Below, in pieces: positions 1 through 60,508 of a stretch of 64,000 nucleotides of DNA. The stretch covers positions 23,987,916 through 24,051,915 of the forward strand of contig CM057148.1 in assembly GCA_029964075.1 (NCBI GenBank), read 5' to 3'. Source of the DNA: Patiria pectinifera (taxonomy: Eukaryota; Echinodermata; Asteroidea; Valvatida; Asterinidae). Within the stretch, counting starts at the first letter, position 1, and each line of letters opens with the position of its first letter. The notes beneath the pieces are model-generated. The model worked only from the letters and a program-made list of their open reading frames with translations. It was not told the DNA's origin and made no database searches. The translations under genes were made by a program, and so were the position numbers.

Positions 1-525
1 TTTCCATGTGGCAAATTCATCAATCCGTTTGGCAAATTCATCTTTCCTTTTGGCAAATTCATCAATCTGTTTGGCAAATACATCATTCCAATCCGTCTGT
101 TTGGCAAATTCACCTTTCCATGTGGCAAATTCATCTGTCCATGTGGCAAATTCAGCATTCCATTCGGCAAATTCATCATTCCATTCGGCAAATTCATCAT
201 TCCATTCGGCAAATTCATTTTTCCATGTAGTATTCCTTTTGGCAAATTCATCATTCCAATCGGCAAATTCATCTATCTTATTGGCAAATTCATATTTCCA
301 TTTGGCAAATTCAGCATTCCTTTTTGGCAAATTCATTCTTCCTTTCGGCAAATTCATCAGTCCAATATGTAAATTCATCATTCCAATATGCAAATTCATC
401 ATTCCTATATCCAAATTCATCATTCCAGTATCCAAATTCATCAATCTGTTTGGCAAACCATCCTTCCTTTTGGCAAATTTATCTTTCCATGTGGCAAATT
501 CAGCATTGCTTTCGGCAAATCAATC
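1..525. repeat. 21-bp minisatellite (GGCAAATTCATC core)
   Basis: About 24 degenerate copies of a 21-bp unit with the core TTTGGCAAATTCATC. The array lies in a DDB1 intron and begins before the window. Because 21 is a multiple of 3, all three forward frames stay partly open and give long repetitive ORFs, up to 188 codons at 8-574. These are a by-product of the repeat and not a gene. Confidence 0.9.
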
Positions 526-40600: not shown

Positions 40601-43600
40601 CATGTACAATGGAACGCCGCTATACCGAACATTCGGCTATACCAAACATCATCCTTGGCTCCCGGTTTTAATGTACAAAACGTACCGAACATCGTTGTTG
40701 AAAAAAAGTCAACAGATTAACCAAAAAAACCTACCGGTTGTACATGTATTAAACACTGTTTGGGCCTCTTTTAATTCCCGAACATCAAACCACCCATGGT
40801 TACATCGTGTTTGAATGTTGAAGAGCGATAGATGGCTATTATTTCCCCAAGGAATAAAAGGGAAAATCACCCGTTGCTAAAGTTTTGGGACAACTCCTCG
40901 TGCGGCGGCGGGATGTGAGAAATGCCAGTTCAGTGACTTCACTATTGGTCTAAAGAGGGTACCGGCGGTTCAAAATCGCTGTACCGAATGATCGTTATTA
41001 CAAACACTTTCTGTGGATCCCACGATGTTCCTTTTCGCGGCGTTTCACTGTATTGGATTATTGCACTGTTTTATGCAAACTTAAAGATAGTTTGACCAAT
41101 TGTTTGCGTATTGTTGTCTCCGGCAGGTTTAGTTCTGATGGGTTTTAAGCCCCGCTCCTCTCTCAAGCGATATTTCCACATCCGCCCCTCCCAGTTTCTC
41201 TTCCCCGACGAAAGTGTGGTCAAGGGAAGCACCAGCCTGTTTTCCGCCTTACTCCAGCGTTGCCTGGCGAGGGACGTGGTCGCCATCTGTCGTTTCATCC
41301 CGCGCAAGAACTCCACGCCATTCTTTGTCGCACTCTGTGCCCAGGTAATATACAGCGCGTCCCAAAATACCCGTAACTTTTTTTTTGGAAAGCCCCTGGC
41401 AGTTTCTCTTTCCTGACGAAAGTGTGGTCAAGGGAAGCACCTCCCTGTTTTCCGCCTTGCTCCAGCGTTGCCTGGCGAGGGACGTGGTTGCCATCTGTCG
41501 TTTCATCCCGCGCAAGAACTCCACGCCATTCTTTGTCGCACTCTGTGCCCAGGTAATATACAGCCCGTCCCAAAATACCCATAATGTTTTAGTTCTAGCA
41601 TCGGTGCGGAAACACATACCGCTGTTATTTTTAAACCATTGGAATCTGAACTTTACCCGGATGAGTATTGGTTTGATATTTAATAAGAGATTTAAAACCA
41701 CTTGTGTTATTAATAAAGACATGTCGAAAACAAACTCAACCGATTTCAAGGAAAATCGATGATGCGGTACATCAGATGCAAAATCGAGTCACACTTTCAG
41801 ACCGCTTTCTGAATAGGTACATACTTGCACGTAACCTTCAAAATTGAACTTGATACGAAGGAAACTATTGTGAAATCAATCATTTTAAGAAGTAGTCTAC
41901 GTGGTATTGTGAAATCAATCATTTTAAGAAGTAGTCTACGTGCAGTAATAAAGACTAGGGAACATACCAAGTAAAAGTCAACGAGATCATCCCATCATGA
42001 ACATGATGAACCATTTCCACATTAGAAAAAAGTGGGCATGATCAATCTTCCGTGACATCGCTTTGAGTTTTGAGCCATTACTCTCTTTAAACCAAGTAAG
42101 CTGTTGAACAATAATTTCATCAGTTACTTTTTGGATAGCTGCAAATGATCTACTCTACCTTTAACGTAGCCTTTAGTCAAGTCCCCCGCGCCTATACCGG
42201 ACCATCCGGACATGTAACGCACCCCGGATGCTGGCACTTAAAAAGACTAGCACGAGCGGCAAAGCCACGAGGGCCTTTACTATCTCGTGGAGCTAATCAC
42301 TTAACCATTTATTCACGTAAAATAAATCAAGTAATATAAACCAATCATCTAACAGTGGTTTGCGGTTACTAGCAACAGCACCCGCGCCATGGTGCGTGTG
42401 CTGTCTGGCGGCAGACGACGGCTGATTTACGTTAGTAATTCTGCATTTCCATTGGTCAATTCACAACGGGTAATGCATAATGCATGTCTACCAAATCGGT
42501 AGACAAATGTAAAGAAAAACATAAGCGTTCTCCACGAGATGGTAAAGGCCCTCGCGGCTTTGCCGATCGACGTGCTAGTCTTTTTAAGTGTCAGCATCCG
42601 GGGTACGTCACGTGTCCGGGTAGGCGCGTGGGACTTGACTAAAGGCTACCTTTAACGGCACATGGTTTAAATGTCAGCTAAGGCAGTTCAGTCCAAAGTC
42701 AGACTTGCAATATTCAATATATCATTTCTAATTCATCCCTTATCTCTGATATTACATGTTGTTGTTGTATTTCATTATCGAAATTTGAATTTCCTTTTTT
42801 TTAGGAGGAGGAGTTGGATGAGCACAATGTTCAGGTCACGCCCCCCGGATTCCATCTCATCTACTTACCCAACTCCGAGGACATCAGGAAACTGACCCTC
42901 CCTGAACAACCCAGAGGTAGTTAGCACCTTTCATACCAAAGTGAATTGACCCATGGTAGATTCATTGAGCAAGCTAAGGGACCGTGACCATTCAGCCCCG
43001 GTATGAAAAGGGCCCCCCGGTAAGCTCGTCCCCTCCCAAGAAGTCCTTTCGTACCGTCCCAGCTATCGGCCCAGGAGCTGGTCCGGTTGCTAATCAGGAA
43101 CTCCTCTATCCTGGGGTCTATTATTAGCAAGTATTGACACAAGTAATATATCCCAGAAGAAACCCGCTTGTGGTTTTCATCTTTCAGCGCGAAACAATAG
43201 AACACTTTCGTCTGCACAGATCAAAACCCCTGCCATGCGGTTTCGCGCACAATGGGACTGTAAATTACCAAGGCGTTATGGAAGGATTTTATCTTTAATC
43301 CGGTAAGTCTGCTATTGTTCTGCTCTGGACTTTCCCTGAAGGGCAATAAATTGATGCGCCTGACTGATTTCAAAACTTCCGGTCAGACAGGACCATGTAC
43401 CGGACGAGACTGGGCTGAAGACCGGACTGGCTCTGGACCGGACGAGGTACCGGGGGGCCCTTTTCATACCAGGGCTGAATGGTCACGGTCCCTAAGGGCA
43501 TGTGCAGAAACTGAAATCATCCAGGCGTCGTGATTGTAGAACCAAGCAATAGACTCATCAAACTTTGCTCGTACCCCCCACCCTGAAAACAGGATGCTTG

Positions 43601-46600
43601 AATACTTGGAAGAACCAATCAAGAACCAAACCAATAGCAATCAAAATCCAGTCTCGGACTGAGACTTGGTTAAGAAATTGTGCAAATGTATGTTAGGCAA
43701 AAAAAAAAAGTCTCCGGTTTCTGGTATGGAGCTTGCCCCAAAAGTGGTGCGGCGACGCGGCTTTTTTTTTTTTTTACCTGGTTTTTTTTTTTTTTTGGCT
43801 TCAAATGTCGGCTGATGACTGCAAATGGTGCCCGACTAAACTTAGTGCAAATATATGGGAGTCCAGAGAGGCCGCATAAATCTTATTCTCGATCATAACC
43901 CCATCTAAAAACACGTTAAAATTGTGCAGCAGCAGAATTCCAGTCAAACCAGTGAGTTTGGCGGTTTTGAAACATCATCTTGTATTGAAAAAAAAACTTT
44001 TTCATTTTGCCGACGCGCATGGCTACGGCGACGCGCGCGCATACCAGAAACCGGAGACTTTTTTTTTTTGGCTTTAAGTGTTTTGGTTTTTTTTTGTTGG
44101 CAGCGAATGTTGATCAGATCGACAAAGCCAAAGAGGTCATCAAGAAGCTGCAATTCAAATTTAAGAGCGAGAATTTTGAGAACCCAGTCCTGCAGACACA
44201 CTACCGTAACCTGGAAGCTCTAGCCCTCGATCGGGACAAACCAGAAGACATCGTAGATCATACAGGTCAGGGGTCAATAGTGGTTCATTTGTTTGTCAGT
44301 TTGTTACTCAGAATATGAAAGAAGGGGTCAGGGGTCATCAGTGTTTTGTTTGTCAGTTTGTTAGTCAGAATATGAATGAAGGGGTCAAGGGTCATCAGTG
44401 TTTTGTTTGTTCGTCAGTTACTCAGAATATGAATGAAGGGGTCAGGGGTCATCCTTGTTTCGTTTGTCAGTTGGTTACTCAGAATATGAACGAAGGTGTC
44501 ATGGGTCATCGGTGTTTTGTTTATCAGTTGGTTACTCAGAATATGAATGAAGGGGTCAGGGGTCATCAGTGTTTCGTTTGTCAGTTGGTTACTCAGAATA
44601 TGAATGAAGGGGTCAGGGGTCATCAGTGTTTCGATTGTCAGTTGGTTACTCAGAATATGAATGAAGGGGTTAGGGGTCATCAGTGTTTCGTTTATCAGTT
44701 GGTTACTCAGAATATGAATGAGGGTTCAGTTGTCATCACTGGTTGGTTTGTCAGTTTGTTACTCAGACTATGAGTGAATAGGTCAGGGGTCGTTAGTGGT
44801 TTGTCCGTTTGTTACACAGACGCTAAACCACAACTTCAAAGCCGAACCCTGTTTTGGTAAAACAGATTTTGGATTGCATGAGTCAAGGATCACAGGTTTG
44901 TTTGTCAGTTTGTTACCCAGACCACGAATGAAGAGTTACAGTTTTGAAAATCTTCGGGATGGACACTACTTCCACATCCTAGAAAGACTTAGCTGTGTAT
45001 TAAACTAAGATAAGGCCAAAAAAAAAATAAGTCGGTCTCTGGTCAGCGCGCGCGTCGATTTTAATCATGCGCGGTAGCTCCAACAGCGCCCTCTATTTCC
45101 GCACCTCCTCAATTTTTTGTACCAAAGAGCACCAAGGAATGGAAAATTGTACCAAGGCAAATGATCGAAAGCACCAAGGCAAATTGAGGATACCAAAAAA
45201 GCAAAATAGTACCTACCTTGTCTGTACAATCCAAGCTTGAAGAAAAAAAACATGCGTGGCCGCGTCAATTCCGGAACTTTGGTCTGACCAGAGACCGAAT
45301 ATTTTTTTTTTGGGCCTAAGATAGATTGTGAATAACATGAGTCAGGGGTAACAGGTGTAATTGTTAGTTTGTTACTCTCATCCTCAGACTTGTGCCAGTG
45401 AGTTCTAGTACGTTGTAAACGTACATGTCTAAGATTTGAAATCATTTTGTCTTAATAATAATAATAATAATAAAGGCATTTGTATGTAAAGATACCTCAA
45501 AGCGCCTCACAATAAAAAATATAAAACCTATAGGTGATAAAATACTTTAAAAAATGGAAGGTACTTAAAGTGCTATACAGTGACAAGTACTAAAACACGG
45601 AAGCAAACGAAACTAGAATGCAAGTTACTATGCCAAAAGAAAACAATTCAAACCTAAAAACTCTAAAAAGCCAACAGGAAATTTAAGCATTCAAAACATC
45701 AATTATTTAAAACTACTACATGCACCTTAAGAGTGCTACAACAAGAAAATGGCTACGATAGCAAAAGGTATACTGCAACTCGTAACACCAAACCAAACAA
45801 GTAAAATGCATAAAAAACTAAGCACAAAATGTATAAAAAACAGTGTATAATGTAACACAGAACAACAAACCATTAGAAACACGAAAAAGGCATAAGGGTC
45901 ATTCTATAAATTTGGGGTCCAAAGTGTGACATTTTTCCTGTCCCTGTTACCTTGGTACTTTGTAATTTGCCATTCAAGCATCATTAGAAGTGACTTCAAA
46001 TGATTGTTTATTTGTTGGGTAGGTAGTTTGCTATATTCATAATCACTCTTGGAGGATGACTGCATTAAGGAGTGCATCAGAATTATAAAATCATAGATGT
46101 CAGATGTAACAGGGACGGGGAAAAAAGTGGACCCCAAATTTATAGAATGACCCATAAACGTGGTAACAAAAATCAACAACAGGCCAAAAAAAGGCAAAAC
46201 AAATTACCAGGAAAAACTATATAACGAGAGACAGAAACACTGAGTGAAGAAAAACATGTAATAAACGAGGGAAGCAAACAAAACTAGGAGGCAAGCAAAT
46301 ATGTCAGAAAGTAAACAACTACAACTAATACAAGAAAGCCAATCAATCAATCAATCAATCAAATCTTTAATTTTCCCAACGCATACAAGTACATAATAAT
46401 ATTACTTAACATTTGAATTATTGTGTATGGCTGGGTGGAGGTCTCCAAAAAGCATAAGCTTGTCGAGACCCCCACTGTAATAAAGAACAATTACAATTAC
46501 AATTACAATAACAGTTACAATTAATTACAAGTACAAGTACAACGATAGGAGTTAAATGACAAAAACATATTGGTACAGAGCTAGTAATACGAAATAAAAC

Positions 46601-55289: not shown

Positions 55290-56590
55290 CCTCTAGGGTT
55301 TGACCGCTAGTGGTCGCCCCTAGAGGAAGTGCCTCTAGGGCCCCTAAAGGACGATTTTGGGTAAAATCAGTCAAAAATAATGATTTCCCCCCCCCCTAAA
55401 AATCGATGATTTTTGCCCAAATCTTAAAAATATTCGGTGTTTGAATGATGATTGATGCTCCTCTTACCTTTAAAGAATTTCTGCACAATTTGAACAAAAG
55501 TGGTCGCCCATAGAGAAAGTGCCTCTAGGGGCAACCACAAGTGGTCACCCCTAGCGGAAGAGGTTTGGGTAAAATCAGTCAACAATAATGATTCCCCCCC
55601 CCCCCTAAAAATCGATGATTTTTGCTCAAATCTATTAAAATATTGGGTGTTTGAATGATGATTAATGCTCCTCTTGCCTTTAAAAAGAATTTCTGGATAG
55701 GTTTAAGAAATTCGTTTTCTGGCCAAATTTCATAAATAAAGTAAGGGTTACCCTTGTGGGTTTTTGGGGGGTTTTTTTTGGCCAAAAAATAAAATCGCTT
55801 CAAATTTGCTAAAAAGATGCCTAAAGGACCCTGGAACACATCCTAATTCGATTTATGGACAGATATGCTTTTCAAAATGAAATTTCGACGAGAATTTGGG
55901 GGTGAAATCAGTCAAAAATAATGATTAGTTTTCCACGAAATATCGATGTTTTTGGCCAAAATCTTCAATTATTGGGTGTTTGAATGTTGATTGCTGCTCC
56001 TCTTGCCTTTAAAAGAATTTCTGCATAGTTTGAAGAAAATTCATTTTTGGGCCAAATTTCATTAGAAAAAGTAAGGCTTAATACTTACCCCTTCAATTTT
56101 GGCCTAAAAAAGAAATCGCTTCAAATTTGCTGGAAAGATGCCCAAAGGACCATTGAACGCATTCAAATTCGATTTCTGGACAGATGTGCTTTTCAAAAAA
56201 AAAAAAATCCCGAAAATTTGGGGTGAAATCAGTCAAAAATAATGATTTGTTTTCCTACAAATATCGATGATTTTTGCCCAAATCTTCAATATAATTGTGT
56301 TTGAAGGTTGATTGATGCTACTTTTGCCTTAAAAAGAATTTCTGCATAGTTTGCAGAAAATTCATTTTTGGCCAAATTTCAATTTATGAACAGATGTGCT
56401 TTTCAAATTAAACTTCGACGAACATTTTGCGTGAAATCTGTCAAAAATAATATTTCTTTTCTCTAGAAATCCAGGATTTTTGGCCCAAATCTTCAATATA
56501 TTGCTTGTTTGAATGTTGATTGATGCTCCTTTTGCCTTTTAAAAAATGTTTGCATAGTTTGAATAAAAGTCATTTTTTGGTCAAATTTCG
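55290..56590. repeat. Degenerate tandem array, unit about 200-330 bp, five copies
   Basis: Blocks containing AAATCAGTCAAAAATAATGA, AAATCGATGATTTTTG, GTTTGAATGATGATTGATGC and AGAATTTCTGCATAGTTTGA recur at about 55360, 55570, 55905, 56225 and 56430. The copies diverge by indels, with poly-C tracts in the first two. Confidence 0.82.
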
Positions 56591-60008: not shown

Positions 60009-60508
60009 NNNNNNNNNNNNNNNNNNNNNNNNNNNNNNNNNNNNNNNNNNNNNNNNNNNNNNNNNNNNNNNNNNNNNNNNNNNNNNNNNNNNNNNNNNNN
60101 NNNNNNNNNNNNNNNNNNNNNNNNNNNNNNNNNNNNNNNNNNNNNNNNNNNNNNNNNNNNNNNNNNNNNNNNNNNNNNNNNNNNNNNNNNNNNNNNNNNN
60201 NNNNNNNNNNNNNNNNNNNNNNNNNNNNNNNNNNNNNNNNNNNNNNNNNNNNNNNNNNNNNNNNNNNNNNNNNNNNNNNNNNNNNNNNNNNNNNNNNNNN
60301 NNNNNNNNNNNNNNNNNNNNNNNNNNNNNNNNNNNNNNNNNNNNNNNNNNNNNNNNNNNNNNNNNNNNNNNNNNNNNNNNNNNNNNNNNNNNNNNNNNNN
60401 NNNNNNNNNNNNNNNNNNNNNNNNNNNNNNNNNNNNNNNNNNNNNNNNNNNNNNNNNNNNNNNNNNNNNNNNNNNNNNNNNNNNNNNNNNNNNNNNNNNN
60501 NNNNNNNN
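60009..60508. other. Assembly gap, 500 N
   Basis: Exactly 500 N, which is often a placeholder length, so the true distance is unknown. A LINE fragment enters from the left and a GPCR exon from the right. Confidence 0.99.

Follow-up and report, generated by a model that had tools for sequence, protein, structure and literature searches.

The Ku70 gene in the stretch of DNA analysed here carries a head-to-tail duplication of 208 bp that combines the 3' part of exon 9 with the left end of a putative non-autonomous Tc1/mariner-like transposon. As a result, the final 50 codons of exon 9 occur once more in intron 9, as a copy that we call exon 9b. The transposon was inserted first and the duplication came second. 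We tentatively regard exon 9b as a candidate cassette exon, which would sometimes be included in the message and whose protein sequence would have been kept by selection. This reading is drawn from the genomic sequence.

The window, i.e. the whole stretch of 64,000 bp, corresponds to C20:23987916-24051915 of a 613.5-Mb assembly with 1020 contigs. With human Ku70 as tblastn query, clear matches to Ku70 (XRCC6) were obtained in order on the + strand from 28639 to 52375, in a list that also includes many chance matches. The ordered exons span human residues 1 to 607, in agreement with a Ku70 ortholog; stretches of the human protein without a clear match are an edge at about 73-64, residues 121-130 and 156-159, and the linker 543-572. 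Exon 9, the ninth segment matching human Ku70, is located at 41127-41344 (+ strand) and consists of a split Gly codon followed by 72 codons, equivalent to human residues 344-416. The match has 56% identity and coordinates 41126-41344, while the true start of the exon is 41127, behind the acceptor AG at 41125-41126. The end of exon 8 was read by eye as phase 1. A phmmer comparison of exon 9 with the PDB Ku70 chains provided a best E value of 1.2e-22. Exon 10 (42805-42916, + strand, end approximate) follows the acceptor TTTTTTTTAG and starts with GAG GAG GAG in phase 0. Further downstream, starting about 23 bp past the end of exon 11, a 57-bp unit is repeated about 9 times (44288-44804). It contains GGTCAGGGGTCA, which resembles the exon 11 donor region, and it may hold decoy donors. 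Of the four matches to the Ku Pfam family in the assembly, three fall in the Ku70 gene described here and the fourth, on C4, is presumably Ku80.

A repeat search placed the two copies of the duplicated unit at 41184-41382 and 41392-41590, with 94% identity and a spacing of 208 bp. Tandem Repeats Finder reported a period of 208 with 1.9 copies and a score of 732. A chance repeat is excluded by this identity and score, which are far beyond chance. An earlier sequence-only reading of the window had described a 208-bp head-to-tail unit comprising 150 bp of exon 9 and its donor, and both searches bear this out: the unit contains the last 150 bp of exon 9, the donor and ~40 bp of intron. Copy 1, with the exon 9 part, the donor and the left end of the transposon, extends over 41184-41390 (+ strand), where the right edge is accurate to about 10 bp; for copy 2 the repeat search and Tandem Repeats Finder give 41392-41590 (+ strand). 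The duplication junction reads TTTTTTTTTGGAAAGCCCCTGGCAG; its two sides do not overlap there and it contains no N. The two copies are identical over a tract of 75 bp (41282-41356) that takes in the 3' portion of exon 9, its donor and the initial 4 bp of the element. A CC/GG difference is found at 41190-41191, where copy 1 has TCC (Ser) and an allele with the copy-2 sequence would carry TGG (Trp).

Exon 9b (41403-41552, + strand) was found inside a tblastn match to human Ku70 at 41394-41552. The 23 residues at the start of exon 9 are missing from it, and it is equivalent to human residues 367-416, a segment that we take to lie in the Ku core barrel. Being a same-strand intronic copy with an open frame, bordered by AG at 41401-41402 and GT at 41553-41554, the candidate has the genomic features of a tandemly duplicated exon. 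The AG after a poly-T and the phase 0 at both ends had been read correctly before.

What is new here is the origin of the intron part of the unit: judged by its similarity to dispersed copies, it is the left end of a non-autonomous Tc1/mariner-like transposon that starts 8 bp after exon 9. In copy 1, the TA target site (41351-41352) and the left terminal repeat occupy 41351-41387 (+ strand), and the sequence leaves the element after the poly-T. From copy 2, the TA and a longer remnant of the same transposon extend over 41559-42070 (+ strand), as aligned to the copies from 28 loci. Starting at 41353, the best matches to dispersed copies had 93-97% identity over 35-44 bp. Copy 1 departs from the element after ~35 bp and is joined, after the poly-T, via GGAAA to the stretch matching GCCCCT..CAG of exon 9, while copy 2 continues to about 42070. 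The ends of the element start with CAGCGCGTCCCAAAATACCC. They are preceded by the TA typical of a Tc1/mariner-like target site in 37 of 42 distinct ends and by AA or TG in 5, and the element has terminal inverted repeats, seen as paired ends about 650 bp apart in dispersed copies such as L002, L003, L005, L007 and L008. The superfamily name Tc1/mariner-like is our assignment from the end sequence and the TA site, and mobilisation by a mariner-type transposase is putative.

A right end of the element in the window was not found within 3 mismatches. In the whole assembly a 27-bp form of the end has 75 exact matches, a number that counts ends and not elements. Among the 40 of 86 candidate matches that were scored, only one place in the genome fully matched the exon 9 unit; the other 39 were limited to query positions 161-217, which are the transposon end and a few neighbouring bases. 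No second Ku70 copy, retrocopy or haplotig with exon 9 was found in the assembly within this scored set. A scan of viral_contigs revealed no relatives. Contig C1015, which holds the sole other exact match to the 27-bp copy-1 form of the transposon end, turned out to be an ordinary transposon copy, with no exon 9 match in the fetched 8000 of its 15038 bases. The remnant in the window also contains an exact 39-bp tandem duplication (41866-41942), about 280 bp downstream of the unit. This duplication looks private to this copy of the element, with most columns that are gaps in the majority lying within 41879-41949.

Both window copies have the insertion site in common as well as a C-to-T change that occurs in 0 of 42 ends from the 28 fetched loci and at one other place in the genome, within an otherwise ordinary transposon copy, where it apparently arose in parallel. 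Since site and change are common to both copies, the transposon insertion preceded the duplication. Compared to the majority of the copies from the 28 loci, the copy-2 element differs at 51 of 442 scored sites, of which 7 of 34 fall in the end and 44 of 408 in the body, such that the end is more changed than the body. At these 34 sites of the end (41351-41384 and their counterparts), copy 1 is off the majority at 1 site, which is also changed in copy 2, while copy 2 is off at 7. Copy 1 is nearly majority-like, and most of the change at the shared sites therefore came after the duplication. This suggests that the duplication, given a simple tandem duplication, is not very recent. The private changes in the transposon end amount to 6 for copy 2 and 0 for copy 1 (two-sided binomial about 0.03), in a small sample in which the alignment is soft at two of the six sites, situated in the poly-T. 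The asymmetry would fit, weakly, either a constraint on the mini-intron described below or chance.

Exon 9 and exon 9b are separated by a candidate mini-intron of 58 bp (41345-41402, + strand), about 60% of which is transposon. It has the layout GTAATA ... CGTAAC TTTTTTTTT GGAAAG CCCCTGGCAG, and the splice signals are present in outline: putative roles can be given to the donor GTAATA, a branch-point-like CGTAAC (41372-41377) situated 26 bases before the end of the stretch, a T9 tract (41378-41386) and a CAG (41400-41402). A competing AAAG (41389-41392) precedes the CAG and lies 16 bases past the presumed branch point. If it were used as alternative acceptor, the exon would be predicted to resume at CCCCTGGCAG with a shifted frame. 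By comparison, 39 gaps that separate adjacent exon matches in HSP90 and myosin genes measure 114-1544 bp, each of them more than 58 bp; they were taken from all 27 HSP90 matches and from 39 of 75 myosin matches chosen as neighbours. The gap lengths are rough values, as a single match may span a very short intron. According to a report on ultra-short introns (PMC8363638), the 56-nt intron 7 of human HNRNPH1 is spliced, so that 58 bp is not prohibitive in principle. The two lengths are similar, but splicing was seen in human cells in that case while the stretch described here is a candidate.

The phases restrict the possible outcomes. Substitution of exon 9 by exon 9b is ruled out, because the intron before exon 9 has phase 1 and exon 9b starts in phase 0. 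The two do not form a mutually exclusive pair: in frame, exon 9b can follow exon 9 but cannot take its place. Retention of the 58 bp shifts the frame and leads to a stop at 41416. Skipping of exon 9b would give normal Ku70. The same would hold if the AG/GT at 41551-41554 acted as a recursive site, by which one 208-bp unit would be removed. The predicted junctions are GTGCCCAG joined to TTTCTCTTTCC for exon 9 to exon 9b and GTGCCCAG joined to GAGGAGGAGTTGG for exon 9b to exon 10.

The two copies of the 50 codons (41195-41344 and 41403-41552) encode the same peptide while five codons differ at six bases (TTC/TTT, CCC/CCT, AGC/TCC, TTA/TTG and GTC/GTT). Six silent differences, together with about four in the adjoining intron, had been claimed from the sequence; both counts hold, with the four intron differences in 41345-41382 being at 41357, 41373, 41377 and 41378. 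In four of the five codons a single third position has changed. The pair AGC/TCC is a two-base switch, for which single steps go via Thr (ACC) or Cys (TGC), and it represents either a double mutation or hidden replacement steps. In the PDB alignment human Ku70 has Thr at this position, so each copy may have moved by one step from an ancestral ACC. Due to this switch the term "only synonymous" applies to the end state, not necessarily to the path.

About a quarter of the possible exon changes are silent. We simulated the divergence by introducing random changes into either copy up to a total of 5 or 6 differing bases, with 8000 runs per setting. When both copies drifted, zero amino-acid differences resulted in 0.04-0.3% of the runs. 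When copy 1 alone was constrained and exon 9b was free, they resulted in 0.45-1.9%. The simulations speak for a coding constraint on both lineages during the divergence and disfavour an unconstrained second copy. The constraint would have acted either on two tandem exons or on two alleles of one exon before its duplication.

The explanation that we tentatively favour is the following: A non-autonomous Tc1/mariner-like element inserted 8 bp past the end of exon 9, and a later 208-bp tandem duplication joined this element, just past its left-end poly-T, to the interior of exon 9. The last 50 codons were thereby repeated behind a 58-bp stretch that could act as an intron, with the transposon supplying the branch-point-like motif and what would be the polypyrimidine tract of the exon 9b acceptor. 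As a phase 0-0 cassette, exon 9b could be skipped or its intact AG/GT could serve as recursive splice point, both of which would yield normal Ku70, while its inclusion would yield Ku70 with 50 repeated residues. We infer that exon 9b is included at times and that its protein sequence was kept by selection. In favour of this explanation are the anatomy, the insertion of the transposon before the duplication and the rarity of replacement-free outcomes in both simulated settings. In addition, the departures from the transposon majority (1 of 34 sites in copy 1 versus 7 of 34 in copy 2) resemble what conservation of the mini-intron copy would leave, although this asymmetry is weak and the end of copy 2 is also more changed than its own body. 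Against a use of exon 9b speak the shortness of the 58 bp, the competing AAAG and the placement of 50 repeated residues in the Ku core, where they would probably disturb the fold and would likely be harmful or at least different. Since the structure would be duplicated next to itself, constitutive use of exon 9b is less likely. That a new, selectively kept cassette exon has arisen from a transposon end combined with the duplication of part of an exon, which would give this animal two forms of Ku70, appears rather doubtful to us.

A used alternative exon, gene conversion and an assembly join of two haplotypes were the options named by the sequence-only reading. They are the right ones, although the transposon, from which most of the mini-intron derives and which provides a rough order of events, could not be seen in that reading, and the interpretation as a whole is partly supported. 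A real duplication may also have formed by unequal exchange or repair between divergent alleles, with exon 9b being young and spliced out together with intron 9. We consider this quite possible. The differences would then be old allelic variants of a single functional exon, and their being silent would call for no use of exon 9b; a used cassette exon and a duplication between alleles thus both account for the silent-only pattern. The window is rich in tandem repeats (45 partly overlapping entries from Tandem Repeats Finder), and a pair of HSP90-family loci with 91.8-96.5% identity would reveal a high allelic divergence if the two are haplotypes rather than paralogues. The divergence between the copies would, however, have to be high, with 6 changes in an exon in which about a quarter of the possible changes are silent, and with differences at 6 of 34 transposon-end sites, a high value for alleles. 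Furthermore, the CC/GG difference would give the copy-2 allele Trp in place of Ser, unless this change occurred after the duplication.

Silent-only differences are likewise the expectation for two alleles that were joined head to tail during assembly, and with 40 of 86 candidates scored the exon has only one match in the assembly, hence no second haplotype is at hand for checking. We nevertheless regard such an artefact as improbable. The junction is not an overlap of its sides and contains no N, 208 bp is a small unit for a join of haplotypes, the change from CC to GG would mean a Ser-to-Trp replacement in an allele, and the geometry of the transposon disfavours a join. Equally little credence is given to a real duplication with an unused exon 9b whose similarity to exon 9 was maintained by gene conversion from the latter. 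Conversion accounts for the identical 75 bp at 41282-41356, but it confers no preference for silent over replacement changes on those accumulated since, such that the 0.45-1.9% still applies.

If exon 9b is used, the locus would clearly illustrate how a cassette exon can be made from a transposon end plus a small tandem duplication, and a repeated segment would be placed in a very conserved repair protein. If exon 9b is unused, the locus would serve as a warning that tandem duplications from two divergent alleles can mimic selected exons.

In Alu exonization an antisense poly-T is used as the polypyrimidine tract of a new exon. A transposon poly-T would have the same role here, whereas the body of the exon is duplicated host coding sequence and the poly-T belongs to the remnant of a DNA transposon. 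Tandem exon duplication with alternative splicing (PMC9741552, PMC9013439) is similar in that an internal exon has been duplicated in head-to-tail order together with its splice sites and an open frame. It differs from the present case, in which the exon copy is partial, its phase permits addition only, most of the sequence in front of it is transposon and both copies encode an identical peptide. Tandem exon duplication is thus a known kind of event, and the unusual part here is a transposon end as most of the mini-intron. In intron gain by tandem genomic duplication, as reported for potato RdRp (PMC4974935) and reviewed in PMC3443670, a duplicated AG/GT boundary provides new splice options; in a similar manner, excision of exactly one 208-bp unit would here restore the normal message. 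In contrast to these cases, the AG/GT here was already the end of an exon, and most of the new intron-like sequence comes from a transposon end. We found no report of a Ku70 exon duplication in the open-access literature searched, which is no proof of absence.

Some further features of the window and the genome were observed. An HSP90-family gene occurs as two oppositely oriented copies on one contig, separated by about 830 kb (L038, C21:27187500-27194500; L039, C21:26357000-26364900). Four main blocks of coding and noncoding sequence are 91.8-96.5% identical between the two loci, which represent either a recent duplication or retained haplotypes. The sole N run of the window (60009-60508), which stands for withheld or unknown bases, lies between a reverse-transcriptase-like frame and a receptor-like frame on the opposite strand, both labelled by eye. 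At the very start of the window (1-520) there is an array of about 21-bp units (TGGCAAATTCATC...). Another tandem repeat with a period of 208 is located at 56211-56589, and its consensus unit is different from that in Ku70.
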